A DNA stretch of 51,160 bases, from contig QNYQ01000028.1 in NCBI GenBank assembly GCA_003978665.1, positions 1 to 51,160 of the forward strand, read 5' to 3'. Position 1 is the stretch's first letter. Each line of letters opens with the position of its first letter. The position numbers were made by a program, and so were the translations under genes. This document shows, one piece after another, positions 294-41,754 of this stretch. The notes under the pieces were generated by a model that worked only from the letters and a program-made list of their open reading frames with translations, did no database searches and had not been told where the DNA came from. The stretch is from Hyperthermus sp. Its GTDB lineage: Archaea; Thermoproteota; Thermoprotei_A; Sulfolobales; Pyrodictiaceae.

Positions 294-974
294 GTGGGTG
301 AACGGGCTGTCACGGGGCTCCGCGGGGTTGTGGTTGAAACGCTGCTCATAACTCCGAGCGGCGCCCTAAGCCCCGGCTTATTGTCTGCTGCAGCCGTGGC
401 CGTGGGCGTTGGGCTGGGGTTGCAGGGAGGCTTGGCGGTAGCCTTAGGGCACATGTTGTTTGAGCTGCCCTATGTGGCTTTGCTGGTTGCCTGGGCTGGG
501 AGGCTTGAGCGCTTGCTGCGTAGGGCTGAGAGGCCTCTGGCAGCGGTAACGGCTGCTGTGGCAGCATACTTCTCCTATGGATTGTTCACAGCCAGTATTG
601 ACTTGCTAAAGGGCGGGGAGGCCAGCCTAGGCGCCTCGCCGGACTCTTCACCCTTATCGGTCAGCGGTGCAGTAGCAGCCGGGGTCTTGTTCACGGGGTT
701 AAACCCCTACTTCCTTGCATGGTGGGTTACGATAGGCTTGCCATTAGTTCGTGGAGCCGCCCGCTACGGGTTCAAGGGGTTTGCGGCCATGTATACTAGC
801 CATGTATGGATGGACTATGCGTGGCTGTCACTGCTAGCCGTCTTCGGCTCAGCAGTCACATCGGCCTCGAAGAGCTATGGGCTACTCCTGCTCATCCTAG
901 GCGTAGTGCTAGTCGTCTTCGCCGCCGATGTTGCATTAAGAGCTTTTACTGGGAGGAGGATCCTACCATTCTAG
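294..974 (+). CDS. LysE-type amino-acid/metabolite exporter (predicted membrane protein)
   Basis: A hydrophobic protein of about 226 residues with five or six membrane spans. Two features match the LysE/RhtB translocator family: the N-terminal TPSGALSPG segment, equivalent to the family's SPGP turn after the first helix, and FTGLNPYFLAWW in the middle, equivalent to the NPK/NPYF-W motif of the fourth helix. Such proteins export amino acids or related small molecules. The frame is open from GTG 219, but residues before position 26 are not family-like; GTG 294 has a GGTGG ribosome-binding site at 282-286 and is preferred, with GTG 330 also possible. The neighbouring surface cluster gives no hint of substrate. 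Confidence 0.6.
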   Translation: MGERAVTGLRGVVVETLLITPSGALSPGLLSAAAVAVGVGLGLQGGLAVALGHMLFELPYVALLVAWAGRLERLLRRAERPLAAVTAAVAAYFSYGLFTASIDLLKGGEASLGASPDSSPLSVSGAVAAGVLFTGLNPYFLAWWVTIGLPLVRGAARYGFKGFAAMYTSHVWMDYAWLSLLAVFGSAVTSASKSYGLLLLILGVVLVVFAADVALRAFTGRRILPF

Positions 975-1023
975 CCCAGCAGACGCCACGAAGCTCCACC
1001 GCTCTTCTAGGTGTGGCACGCCT

Positions 1024-3753
1024 TTGCCGTCCACGGCCAGTATCGTCAAGGCTATAGCCCTACTAGCGTTCCTCGCGCCGCTCCTGGCAAGCACGGGCGT
1101 CGAGGCGCTTACGGCAGCTGGGCCTCCCGCGATCAATGTTAGCCAGGTAGTGATCGATATTCGAAGCCAGCTGGAGGCGATCTCTAAGAGCAAGGTGCCG
1201 TTAAGGGAGGCTGCACAAGTCTATGAAAACCTCTCCTCCTGCAGCAGGCCGGGCATGTTAAGGGACCTAGCCCTTTCTCTCGCAAGAGCGCTCAGCGAGG
1301 GAGATGTGGGTAAGGCTGGGAGCTTGTTGAAGAAGCTTCAGGAGAGGATGCTCCTCAACCCGAGGGAGGTTGCCGGCTGCGGGCAACACGTGGTGTATAA
1401 GGCTATCCTATACAGCCTCTACACGCCAACAAGCCTAGGACTCCTCGACACCGGAGGCGATGCAGGCGAGCTAGCCGACACCCTGTCACTGGGCTTGGCG
1501 AGGATCCTTGGCCTGGAGAAGGGGAGCGTGAGGAGATGGATAGGAGTCTGCAGCAGCGGCAGTGAGGCAGCATTACTGGCCGCCGTGATCGCCACAGACC
1601 CCTCGGACAACCCCCTGCTCGGCGACATTAATGAGACCATGCACATGAACCCCGACTGCCTGGTGGTGGCTGCAGCGTTCGAGCCCCCGCTTCCCCCCGA
1701 GTCAGCCCGGAGAATACTAAGCCTCTGGAGCATAACCCACGGCTACACCTGGAGCGCGGAGGTCTACGAGGAAGCGGCCAGGCTCGTGAGAGATAACCCT
1801 CTCGAGGCAGCTGGCCTAGTAGTGCTCCTAGAAGCCCTCTACCCCGAGCGCTTCGAGGCAGTGTCAAGGCTTACATCAAACAGGATAGAGGAGGCCCTGA
1901 ACCCTCTCGGAGAGCTTCAATCACTAGTCCACGACCCCAAAAGCATCCACAACCCCCTCCTCTCCCTACTAGCACTGCGGGCTACGAGAGAGAGGGAGCT
2001 CATCCAAGCCCTGGCTGCAAGCGCCAAGAAACACAACAACACGTACTGTGGCCTAGTCCCCAGGCTAGCCAATAGAACACTTCACCTCCACACTGAGGAC
2101 TCAATAGAGCTGCTGGGCTCGGCAGTATCCCTCTGCACGGCAGTAACCCATGACTGGAGGCTATTGACGATACTCCTATCCTACAACCCCTTCACCCCCC
2201 TAGACCCGTGGCTGATGGAGGATTCCGCCCCCCCGCATCTCAAGGCGTTGTTAAGGCTTGATGCCAGGGAGTCGGGGAGGCTTGTAAGGCCTGTGGCCAG
2301 GGATGTGGCGAGTAAGCTGCTATCAACAATAAAGGCTGAGAGCCCCCGTGATGCTGTGAGGGCGGCGCTAGACTATGACCAGCTCTCAGCGCTCGTCGAG
2401 AACATGAGCCGGGGGATGGGAGTGGAGGGGGTGTTGAGGGCCATAGGATTGGCTGCTAGAGCTGCATCGCTAAGATACGAGGATGGCCTCTTCCTTGTCC
2501 ACTACGCAACAGTACACAACATTGCCGAGGCCCTCCTAGAAAAACACGTCCCAGAGCTCGCTGAAGGCGGCAGGGGAGCGTTCAGTGAGAGGATAGAGGA
2601 GCTTTACGAGTGGGCTATTGGAGAGAGGGAGGAGCTGGCTGTAAGCCTATTTAATGAGAGCAGCTTGAAGGCTAGTCTTAAGGAGGCTGCAAGGAGGCTT
2701 GAAGAGCTTGCTGAGAGGCTGAGGAACCATAGTAGCGGTGAGGCTGCAAGCGCAGCCAGTATTGCAGACTTGTTGGCCAGGGCTGCGCTAGAGCTTAGGA
2801 ACGGTAGTATCGAGGAGGCGTTGAGGGATCTCAGCAGGCTCCAACCAAACACTTCCAGCCCCATGCCCGCAGGACTCCTCGGCAAGATCGCGGAGAGCAT
2901 AGCCTCATCGATCGGGCTTAGCCCCGAAGAGGCTGCAAGAATCATTTCCGGACTATTGTCCAACGCCTCCGGGACCCCCATCACGGTAAACTTGTCGGAG
3001 GTGGTGGGGCCGGGGAGGCTTCAGAGCAGTGGAGGCGGCGGAGGGAAGGCTCTAAGCCATGCTGCCGGCAGGCTTGTCGAAGCAGCAATTAGGGCTTCCA
3101 TGGAGAGTATAAAGTCGTTGAAGACAGGGGTGCATGGGAGACCCAGAGTAGTCAAGATCGTTGGCTTAGAGGATTTATTGTCGAGTCTTGACTACAGTGG
3201 CGTGAACAGCCTCGTAGAGGTTACTGCTAGGCTGCTGGAAATGGGCGGGGAGGGTGAAGGGAATGGTGCGGGAGCCTCCGGCGGCGTGGCACCCGGTATA
3301 AGCGGTGTGGGCGGCCTCGGCGGGCTAGGGGCTGTACGGGTGGGCATTAAGGTTGGCTGGGGCCGTGTCATCCCCCTGCTCGTACTGCTCCCCCTACTAT
3401 TACTGTTGGCTAGGCATTTTGAGCGTGTGCGCAGGCTCATTGCTGTGAGGGTTGCCTCGCTAAGGCTTAGGGGGGTCGAAGCCGAGGCCGCCGGCGCTGA
3501 TGGGGAGGAGGAGGTGCGGAGGCTTTTCTCGGGAATGCTCCTAGCGCTGTCAAGGGTCTATGGCGAGAGAGGGGCCGGTGAGACTCACCGAGAGTACTCG
3601 CGTAGGCTTAGGGGGAGGATACGTGGACTCTATAGTGATGCTGCAGGTATTTATGAGAGGGCTAGATTCAGCTCATCAATCCCTCAGGGGGCCACCGAGA
3701 GGATGAAGAGGATACTTGCCGAGCTGAGGAGGCTACTTGCCCGGGGAGGCTAG
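1024..3753 (+). CDS. Large secreted/membrane protein with C-terminal DUF4129-like domain
   Basis: 909 residues from a TTG start. An N-terminal signal peptide (hydrophobic residues 8-24) is followed by a long, mostly helical extracellular part rich in Leu, Ala, Glu and NxS/T sequons. A Gly-rich linker sits around residues 745-775, then one transmembrane helix near residues 780-797 (VIPLLVLLPLLLLLA). The cytoplasmic tail has the DUF4129 pattern, a short helix pair ending GAGETHREYSRRLRG. DUF4129 proteins occur with DUF58 and MoxR genes in clusters thought to process or assemble cell-surface components. It is first of four genes on one strand: the next starts 6 nt after this stop. The extracellular region is not recognised. 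Confidence 0.6.
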   Translation: MPSTASIVKAIALLAFLAPLLASTGVEALTAAGPPAINVSQVVIDIRSQLEAISKSKVPLREAAQVYENLSSCSRPGMLRDLALSLARALSEGDVGKAGSLLKKLQERMLLNPREVAGCGQHVVYKAILYSLYTPTSLGLLDTGGDAGELADTLSLGLARILGLEKGSVRRWIGVCSSGSEAALLAAVIATDPSDNPLLGDINETMHMNPDCLVVAAAFEPPLPPESARRILSLWSITHGYTWSAEVYEEAARLVRDNPLEAAGLVVLLEALYPERFEAVSRLTSNRIEEALNPLGELQSLVHDPKSIHNPLLSLLALRATRERELIQALAASAKKHNNTYCGLVPRLANRTLHLHTEDSIELLGSAVSLCTAVTHDWRLLTILLSYNPFTPLDPWLMEDSAPPHLKALLRLDARESGRLVRPVARDVASKLLSTIKAESPRDAVRAALDYDQLSALVENMSRGMGVEGVLRAIGLAARAASLRYEDGLFLVHYATVHNIAEALLEKHVPELAEGGRGAFSERIEELYEWAIGEREELAVSLFNESSLKASLKEAARRLEELAERLRNHSSGEAASAASIADLLARAALELRNGSIEEALRDLSRLQPNTSSPMPAGLLGKIAESIASSIGLSPEEAARIISGLLSNASGTPITVNLSEVVGPGRLQSSGGGGGKALSHAAGRLVEAAIRASMESIKSLKTGVHGRPRVVKIVGLEDLLSSLDYSGVNSLVEVTARLLEMGGEGEGNGAGASGGVAPGISGVGGLGGLGAVRVGIKVGWGRVIPLLVLLPLLLLLARHFERVRRLIAVRVASLRLRGVEAEAAGADGEEEVRRLFSGMLLALSRVYGERGAGETHREYSRRLRGRIRGLYSDAAGIYERARFSSSIPQGATERMKRILAELRRLLARGG

Positions 3754-37913: not shown

Positions 37914-38615
37914 ATGTCATCCCTACTGCTGCTCCTTCAGGCTCATGGTGCTTACCTATTGGATGAGGGGTTTTCAAGGCGGCGCGAATACGAGGTCATT
38001 GTATCCGAGATATCTTCATGCAGGAAGTGTCCTCTCCACCGCTACCGGAAGAATACCGTTCCCGGCGAGGGCCCTCTTGACGCAAGCGTGATGGTTGTGG
38101 GCGAGGCGCCTGGCAGGAGGGAGGATGAGGAGGGGCGCCCGTTTGTGGGTGCTGCCGGTAAGCTTCTAGACGCTCTCCTGGAGCTTGCAGGATTGTCTAG
38201 AGGGGCAGTGTACATAACTAATATCGTTAAGTGTAGGCCGCCGGGAAACCGTGACCCTAAGGAGGAGGAGATCGAGGCTTGCATACCCTACCTCCTGAGG
38301 CAGATAGCTCTAATCAAGCCTAAGCTTGTTATAGCCGTGGGAAGGCATGCCGCCAGGACACTGTATAGGCTGGCTGGGCTACAGTGGACGTCGATGACCA
38401 GGCTTCACGGCAGGCTGGTCGACGCCAAGCTTGCGGGAGTCAGTGTGAAGATTATAGCGACCTATCATCCAGCGGCAGCCCTCTACAAGCCGCCTCTGCG
38501 TAGAGTCCTCGAGGACGACTTCAAGGGGCCTATTAAGCGTGCAGTCGAGCTAGCCCTGGGTTTGAGGGGGGAGAGGAGAGCGGGGAGCCTGCTAGACTTT
38601 CTTGGCCAGTCTTAG
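37914..38615 (+). CDS. Uracil-DNA glycosylase, family 4 ([4Fe-4S])
   Basis: Removes uracil from DNA, important at high temperature where cytosine deaminates. 233 residues. The Cys pair CRKCPLH starts the Fe-S ligands, with Cys in NIVKCRPPGNRDP and in IEACIPYL completing four. Motif A is VVGEAPGRREDEEGRPFVG and motif B is ATYHPAAALY. The N-terminal 20 residues are not conserved in type, so the start may be further in. Promoter-like TTTTTTAAG lies near 37876. The end overlaps the convergent protease gene by 24 nt. Confidence 0.93.
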   Translation: MSSLLLLLQAHGAYLLDEGFSRRREYEVIVSEISSCRKCPLHRYRKNTVPGEGPLDASVMVVGEAPGRREDEEGRPFVGAAGKLLDALLELAGLSRGAVYITNIVKCRPPGNRDPKEEEIEACIPYLLRQIALIKPKLVIAVGRHAARTLYRLAGLQWTSMTRLHGRLVDAKLAGVSVKIIATYHPAAALYKPPLRRVLEDDFKGPIKRAVELALGLRGERRAGSLLDFLGQS

Positions 38616-40322
38616 TACTGTAACGTACACGATGGCGAGTAATGCTGCCTCGGCTGCAAGCAGCGCATAGGCTTCTTCGGGCTGGAGGAGGGCTTTGAGC
38701 TGCCCCTTCTCCTCCCCGCCTCCAAGAGCCTTGAGGGCTAGCCCAGAGAGCAGCCAGGTGGTGGCGCTGGCCTCCAGGCTGGCTAGTAGGCCGATACGGC
38801 TCCCGCCAGTATAGTTGGCTACTAGGCCGGAATAGGTTGACGCGTAACCGTGGTAGAGGATGGAGGGGAATAACGCCCATGATCCTAGGAGCGATGCCAT
38901 TCTATTCCAGTGCCCAATTATGCAATCCTCAAGCATCACTGCCGCCAGGAGCCTCGACTCCATGTAGGAGACCGTGAACGCTGCAAGCCCCATTGCTAGG
39001 GGGAGGTTTCCGGCAGCATACGCCCTCTCCATATCCCCGATCCACGCAGCCAAACTCCTATTATCTATCTCGACCCTTATCACGGGTAGTTCGAGAACAC
39101 TCTTGAGATACTTGTAGGAGAGCTCCGCGTACTCGGTCATGAAGCCTACAAGCCCTCTAATCTCCTCGCAGGGGACCAGCGGCCCCGAGGTTTCAAGCGA
39201 CGCGTCAGCCCATGTACGCGCTGATAGAGCCCTCAAGAGGGAGAGAACATTGTCCATCCCCTTAACCTGCTTGGCCAGGTAGAGTCTATAGGATGCCTCA
39301 GACAGGCCTGCGAAACGCCAATAGTAGCAAAGCCCCCCGCCAGCCTTGTAGTCTACTCTCTTAACGGCCTCCTCAGCCCTCTTAATCTCATCCTCCAGCT
39401 TCAACCCAAGCCTCTCCTCTAGCTCCCCAAACGATTTCTTTGCAGCAAACATGTGGGCTGCACGGTAGAGGGCCACAAACGCTAGGCTGGCTGCCGAATA
39501 GTAGTCGCCCCTCTCCAACGCCTCCTCAACGGCAGCCTCCATAGCGGAAACCTTCTCCCTCTCACCCGGCGGGAGAGCGGGGGCGAGGCTTTCAGCGTAA
39601 CCTATCAGCTTTAGGGCATCCCTTCTAAAGGCGTCCGGGTGCCTAATAGTGCTGCTGCTCGCCGCCACAAGGGAGCCAGGGCGACCCGAGACCGGGGCCG
39701 ATAAGAGGTCGCTGGCACCGAACACATCGCATACTCCCGCAACACCCGGCCCGGCACCCTTAGCCGCATACTCCCTGGCCTCGGCGCGAGGAAGAATAAT
39801 CCTCGCATAGCCATTCTCTCTCGCCGCCTCAAGCTTCTCCGGAATACCCGATACGGGTAGAACAGCCCCAGTCAACGACAACATACCGGTCATAGTAGTG
39901 TTAGTGGTCTCCGGGACCAGGCCCAGGGCAAGATCATAGAGTGCTGAAGCGATGAAACCGCCAGCACTAGGGCCGCCAACGGGCGTCGAAGTATTAACCA
40001 CCAGCACAACCCTATACCTCAAGGGATTGTGGCCGGCAAAGAGGAGTGCTAGCCTCGAGGCCAGAAGCGTCGAATAATAGGTACTATCATCCACGGCCCC
40101 ACGCGGCAAAACATCTACATCCCCACTGCCAGGCTCGAGAAACAGCGTGGCCGGAATAACCATTCCATGATCCCTCTCCAAGTCAACGGCAAGCAGGCCC
40201 AGCCTCAGGCTACGCGTAGAAGAAGCCGAGACCACACTAGCAGCAATAAGAGCAAACAGTAGCAGCGACAGCGAGCGCGCATACAAGCCCACAGCCCCAG
40301 ACCACCCCACAGCAGCCAACAC
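38592..40322 (-). CDS. Membrane-anchored Lon-type (S16) serine protease homolog
   Basis: 576 residues from GTG 40322. Residues 15-34 form a signal peptide. A Lon protease domain follows (about 40-210): catalytic Ser in VGGPSAGGFIASALYD, then TGMLSLTGAVLPVSGIPEKLEAARENG with the dyad Lys. There is no AAA+ ATPase, so the protease faces outward. Residues 230-545 are helical. A C-terminal helix YALLAAEAALLAIVYVTVL anchors it. Similar ATPase-free Lon-like proteins are known in archaea (COG1750); substrates are unknown. TTTTAT at 40340-40346 (minus strand) is a fair TATA box. Confidence 0.82.
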   Translation of the reverse strand: MLAAVGWSGAVGLYARSLSLLLFALIAASVVSASSTRSLRLGLLAVDLERDHGMVIPATLFLEPGSGDVDVLPRGAVDDSTYYSTLLASRLALLFAGHNPLRYRVVLVVNTSTPVGGPSAGGFIASALYDLALGLVPETTNTTMTGMLSLTGAVLPVSGIPEKLEAARENGYARIILPRAEAREYAAKGAGPGVAGVCDVFGASDLLSAPVSGRPGSLVAASSSTIRHPDAFRRDALKLIGYAESLAPALPPGEREKVSAMEAAVEEALERGDYYSAASLAFVALYRAAHMFAAKKSFGELEERLGLKLEDEIKRAEEAVKRVDYKAGGGLCYYWRFAGLSEASYRLYLAKQVKGMDNVLSLLRALSARTWADASLETSGPLVPCEEIRGLVGFMTEYAELSYKYLKSVLELPVIRVEIDNRSLAAWIGDMERAYAAGNLPLAMGLAAFTVSYMESRLLAAVMLEDCIIGHWNRMASLLGSWALFPSILYHGYASTYSGLVANYTGGSRIGLLASLEASATTWLLSGLALKALGGGEEKGQLKALLQPEEAYALLAAEAALLAIVYVTVLRLAKKV

Positions 40323-40964: not shown

Positions 40965-41525
40965 CTACCCCGTCTCGACAACCCTTACCTTAAACACTAG
41001 AGGAAGCCTGCTCGCCAACACGCCCTCCTTCACCTCATAGTACATCACTGCCCCCAGCACAGCCCCCTCCCTAAGCTCCTCCGCATCAAGAGTTATCCAC
41101 GCCTTCCCATGCTGCAGGCTTAGGTAGCCCTTAACTTGACCGTTAGGCCCCGTTACAAGGATCCTGGCGTAGTCAAAGTAGTTGGCCGCCTGGTTAGCAT
41201 TAACCCAGTCTATCTCCAGCTTTACGTTCTCCACATCGCTCTGGTTAACCACCCTTATCCAGTCAGGCTTCTTAAAGACCCCCTGACCCCCCGACGACAA
41301 TGACGCGTTGGCTCCGGGAAAGCTGAAGGGGGACACAACCACGTTCACGGGCTCATTCTTCACCGACACGTCGCCATAGCCGTAGTAGGTTCTGTCGCTC
41401 GTGACAGAGGCGTAGCCCGTGAACAAGGCCAGAGCTATCGCCGAGGCAGCCAATGCCGCCAGGGGAGCGAGGCTCCCCGCTCCCGAACTACTCTTCTTCA
41501 CCCCTAACCCCTCCAGCTCCACCAT
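40965..41525 (-). CDS. Cannula-like secreted protein (CanA family, TasA-like fold)
   Basis: 186 residues from ATG 41525; TTG 41531 is two codons earlier. A short N-terminus precedes one hydrophobic helix, LAPLAALAASAIALALFTGY, followed by a beta-rich secreted domain with N-x-S sites. The sequence lines up with Pyrodictium cannula subunits as I recall them: the small-residue signal helix, VENVKLEIDWVNANQ with YFDYARI, the strand AWITLDAEEL, and the C-terminal block YEVKEGVLASRLPLVFKVRV. Cannulae are hollow extracellular tubes linking Pyrodictium cells; CanA subunits join by strand exchange. An AT-rich promoter lies just upstream. Whether this copy forms tubes is inference. Confidence 0.72.
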   Translation of the reverse strand: MVELEGLGVKKSSSGAGSLAPLAALAASAIALALFTGYASVTSDRTYYGYGDVSVKNEPVNVVVSPFSFPGANASLSSGGQGVFKKPDWIRVVNQSDVENVKLEIDWVNANQAANYFDYARILVTGPNGQVKGYLSLQHGKAWITLDAEELREGAVLGAVMYYEVKEGVLASRLPLVFKVRVVETG

Positions 41526-41531
41526 CCTCAA

Positions 41532-41754
41532 CTATAACATTGTTTAAGCAAGCAGCTTATCTTTCTATTTAGAATAGCATAATTACAGTATATCTTTATT
41601 ACTACCAGTATCAGGTTTACTGGATAGTTTTAGCCGGAAACCCCCGGCGAAACAATTGTGGCCGGGAGAAAGCATAGATAATCGGCTGGAACACTGCTGT
41701 ATGAGAGTGTAGTGCCCAGTATAGGGATGGAAAAAGGGGAGGCTGGCCTCCGGG
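41532..41754. promoter_or_regulatory. AT-rich divergent promoter region for the cannula-like gene
   Basis: 223 nt without a gene. It contains the most AT-rich tract of the window (41540-41625). On the minus strand TTCTAAATA at 41566-41574 and CTTAAACA at 41541-41548 are TATA-like elements ahead of the cannula-like start. On the plus strand the start at 41755 has GGAGG at 41739-41743. No ORF is supported. Confidence 0.5.

Follow-up and report, generated by a model that had tools for sequence, protein, structure and literature searches.

In the deep-sea archaeon Pyrodictium, cells are linked by hollow tubes, the cannulae. The cannula subunit CanA folds as a jelly roll; its N-terminus, loose in the monomer, stretches out onto adjacent subunits once the tube has formed (7UII), and its polymerisation is triggered by divalent ions (PMC12326000). 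Polymerised CanA contains three subunit-bridging Ca2+ sites, given in the preprint as D114/E116/D24', Q54/N56/Q39'/G183', and V182/G37'/E161'/E164' (PMC12326000). AbpA, the archaeal bundling pilin (7ueg), and the TasA superfamily probably share the fold class and also assemble by donor strands (PMC11952670), but they form solid pili rather than tubes and give no sequence match with a cannula profile.

The window analyzed here, the whole stretch of 51,160 nucleotides, contains a gene whose product can be tied directly to such a tube. A search of all PDB sequences revealed that residues 40-186 of this product match, at 100% identity, the chain in entries 9bab and 9bac, which was deposited as 'DUF1102 domain-containing protein'. 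The title of 9bab, released on 2025-04-09, reads 'Cryo-EM of Hyper2 tube, ~27 nm diameter', and thus gives a tube of about 27 nm for the exact mature sequence. The mature part matches without any difference, while the signal peptide is missing from the construct, everything ahead of residue 40 having been removed by the depositors. As the 9bab chain is identical over residues 40-186, this sequence has already been seen as a tube, and the identification rests on that identity. Judged by its sequence, the window gene is assigned to Hyper2, a cannula subunit of the CanA/CanX type that is already known and not new. The Hyper2 structures (9bab) are probably the work of Sleutel et al.

The open frame extends upstream as far as TTG 41531, from which it comprises 188 codons, and two start codons within it come into consideration (Table 1). 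Initiation at GTG 41501 would yield a protein of 178 residues with a signal peptide opening MKKSSS. This codon is probably the true start rather than ATG 41525, since a well-spaced GGAGGGG lies ahead of it and a classical signal peptide results. From residue 40 onwards the mature protein has 147 residues and a computed mass of 16.1 kDa. A reading made earlier from the sequence alone had described a signal helix, a mid-protein block, and a C-terminal pattern resembling those of CanA, and all three are present in the frame, as hydrophobic residues 20-37, DVENVKLEI, and YEVKEGVLASRLPLVFKVRVVETG, respectively.

Table 1. Features of the Hyper2 locus (window positions) and its paralogues in the same genome (G000, contig and position)
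Feature	Position	Strand	Remarks
Hyper2 cannula subunit precursor	40965-41525	minus	ATG 41525, 186 aa; stop codon 40965-40967; residues 40-186 equal PDB 9bab/9bac
Alternative start GTG (residue 9)	41499-41501	minus	preceded by GGAGGGG at good spacing; signal peptide MKKSSSGAGSLAPLAALAASAIALALFTGYA; read from the sequence
Signal-peptide hydrophobic helix, residues 20-37	41415-41468	minus	from sequence; PDB construct begins at residue 40
Residues 40-58, SVTSDRTYYGYGDVSVKNE, N-terminal in the mature protein; expected donor strand	41352-41408	minus	mostly pLDDT < 50
Jelly-roll body, residues 59-186	40968-41351	minus	putative Ca2+ ligands N61, G79, Q81, D97, E99, D147, E149, E164, E167, C-terminus G186
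AT-rich upstream/promoter region	41526-41632	minus	TATA-like stretches, e.g. CTTAAA, TTATAG
Second short cannula subunit (L002)	G000:C45:5814-6305	plus	43% identical to window protein, sister in tree
Long N-linker paralogue (L003; L054:8088-8945)	G000:C11:24087-24944	minus	acidic linker from signal helix to cannula domain; lacks the usual donor motif
Central-insert paralogue (L004:865-1791; L055:5636-6568)	G000:C13:9635-10567	minus	about 310 aa, large insert

Upstream of the gene, the 100 nt at positions 41533-41632 are 73% AT, the highest value for any stretch of that length in the 51 kb window, the runner-up reaching 63%, and the most AT-rich stretches of 40, 60, 80, and 100 nt all fall inside 41528-41632. 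The interval highlighted earlier, 40965-41580, takes in the gene and roughly half of this region. The claim that the gene lies behind the most AT-rich promoter of the window thus holds, but the high expression drawn from it does not follow, as AT-richness is no evidence for high expression and base composition does not reveal how strong a promoter is.

In a single-sequence search of the PDB, the next matches after 9bab were CanX (9h8b; E 9e-17) and CanA (7uii; E 4e-7), a similarity far above chance at the sequence level. A family profile built from twelve short paralogues, when run against the whole PDB, retrieved only the Hyper2, CanX, and CanA sequences, each with an E-value of 5e-48 or better. 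The structure predicted from the twelve-sequence alignment has a mean pLDDT of 74, with values of 81-96 per ten-residue block from residue 81 on, and a Foldseek search with this fold returned 9bab, 9h8b, 7uii, 9hdi, and 9dlo, in that order, as its top five matches. Sequence, predicted fold, and the 9bab tube therefore agree on a CanA-type subunit with probable bundling-pilus kinship, as first proposed, strand donation being carried over from CanA. CanX of Pyrodictium abyssi (9h8b, from ex vivo cannulae) is also a short subunit of the same fold, with 27% identity to the window protein over the structural alignment. CanA of the same species (7uii, 9dlo, 9hdi) has in common with it the jelly roll, the N-terminal segment, the C-terminal YExKEG block, and the Ca2+ ligand positions, but is only 22-24% identical and has an extra central insert that the window protein lacks.

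Weaker Foldseek scores were obtained for the bundling pilin 7ueg (E 1.3e-3, probability 0.99, with a TM-score of only 0.35), the Sulfolobus filament 7pnb, and the type 1 pilus tip complex 4j3o. TasA itself was retrieved neither as a PDB chain by the profile nor among the listed Foldseek matches, so that of the suggested kinship with TasA and bundling pili only the pilin side is suggested by a fold match. The family was not recognised by Pfam, which gave no match up to E 10, to TasA and DUF1102 families included, or by NCBIfam, which gave no relevant match; a FadA-type NCBIfam match of one paralogue was isolated and taken as chance. Matches in the viral fold library were all weak and of low TM-score, giving no evidence of a viral origin.

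Following the signal helix (residues 20-37), the segment of residues 40-58 aligns with the paralogues and is unstructured in the monomer model. Its low predicted confidence fits a mobile donor strand but is no proof of one, as a predicted monomer is unable to show strand exchange. The window residues that align with the three CanA Ca2+ sites are D147/E149/N61, D97/E99/Q81/G186, and T185/G79/E164/E167, respectively, with D97/E99 standing where CanA has Q54/N56, N61 where CanA has D24, and T185 in place of V182, presumably as a main-chain contact. In the alignment, G79, Q81, D147, E164, and E167 are invariant in 12/12 paralogues, and oxygen-bearing side chains are kept at the other positions, with the single exception of a lysine at the D24 position in one paralogue (L009). 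As far as alignment can tell, the ligands reported for CanA are thus conserved in the window protein or swapped for oxygen-bearing residues. By analogy with CanA, donor-strand assembly with bridging Ca2+ is the best-supported mechanism that we infer for this protein. It would be exported via its signal peptide, which would be cleaved near residue 39, and would polymerise extracellularly to form a hollow tube with a diameter of about 27 nm, in which the extended N-terminal strand of each jelly-roll subunit would complete the sheet of its neighbours and Ca2+ would bridge the subunit interfaces. That the protein is an exported cannula subunit which assembles in this way is almost certain overall, with the donor-strand mode, the N-terminal donor, and the Ca2+ dependence expected from CanA.

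The shorter central region had previously been taken as a possible mark of a cap, an anchor, or a variant of the tube. CanX and nearly all short paralogues also lack the CanA insert, CanB and CanC are likewise smaller than CanA (PMC12326000), and the protein was deposited as a tube. A short central region is the usual state in the family and is therefore no sign of a cap or anchor. The protein could still be a specialised cannula component in the living cell (a cap, an anchor, or a minor subunit) instead of the main tube subunit, given that the genome encodes a second short subunit, 43% identical, which might be the main one. We consider this unlikely, as the protein was itself deposited as a tube, has the canonical short architecture in common with CanX with no cap- or anchor-like addition, and is accompanied by longer paralogues (C11 and C13) that are better candidates for such roles. 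A solid fibre of the bundling-pilus or TasA kind in vivo, for which the fold kinship with 7ueg could be adduced, is very improbable, since cannula proteins are much closer in sequence and fold and the description of 9bab as a tube largely refutes it. The preferred reading is that of a cannula tube subunit.

A profile search over 229 genomes of the class, with the window genome (G000) itself incomplete at 61%, found the cannula family in three: G000, with four genes, G005, with 8 match places, and G015, with 15-17. The latter two come from a different genus within the same family, and their set of paralogues, with CanX and a CanA-like protein among them, points to Pyrodictium. The profile did not find the family in four genomes (67-88% complete) from the genus to which the window belongs, or in G012, a near-complete genome of the Pyrodictium-like genus; its presence is thus patchy, as relatives in both genera are without it. 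In two proteins of about 440 residues from Pyrodictium-like genomes (L015 and L025), a cannula-like domain at the N-terminus is joined by a Thr-rich linker to a second domain, which contains Cys. Beyond the family, the profile gave two weak matches, in G507 (E 7.5e-7) and G450 (E 1.2e-4), which resemble distant relatives. In G450, a distant archaeon, a probable signal peptidase gene (824-1684, plus strand) comes after the match (L063:232-756, plus strand, 174 aa), a pair that recalls the TasA-SipW arrangement.

The neighbourhood of the locus shows no conserved gene order: only one of 11 window-region genes (a 256-aa gene) was found in stretches from six relatives, and no empty-site comparison is therefore possible. 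Two genes away from the cannula gene, at 38592-40322 on the minus strand, lies a gene for a protein with a Lon-type (S16) protease domain and an N-terminal hydrophobic segment; conserved linkage of the two genes was not found in the relatives' stretches.

In the tree, the window protein pairs with its own paralogue on C45 (support 99/97), while the long N-linker protein on C11 groups with two proteins of G015 (L022 and L024; 95/85) and the central-insert protein on C13 with another (L028; 97/94), the last grouping being less sure owing to long branches. The C13 protein and L028 are 38% identical, and the C13 model (mean pLDDT 53.5) is too poor to name the insert. As C11 and C13 group with counterparts in G015 while the short window protein groups with C45, the common ancestor of these lineages probably already had several architectures, and the short subunits multiplied separately. 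The C11 protein is a candidate base or anchor subunit. More tentatively, cannulae may be a multi-subunit system with conserved accessories, in which a long N-linker form roots the tube at the cell and a central-insert form starts, ends, or cross-links it, a possibility that we rate as rather doubtful at present.

An unlabelled metagenome contig is now tied to a solved tube structure, and provides the genomic context of Hyper2. The accessory paralogues are possibly less documented and are the part that merits a further look, as this set offers concrete candidates for cannula anchoring and termination, on which the tube structure alone is silent.
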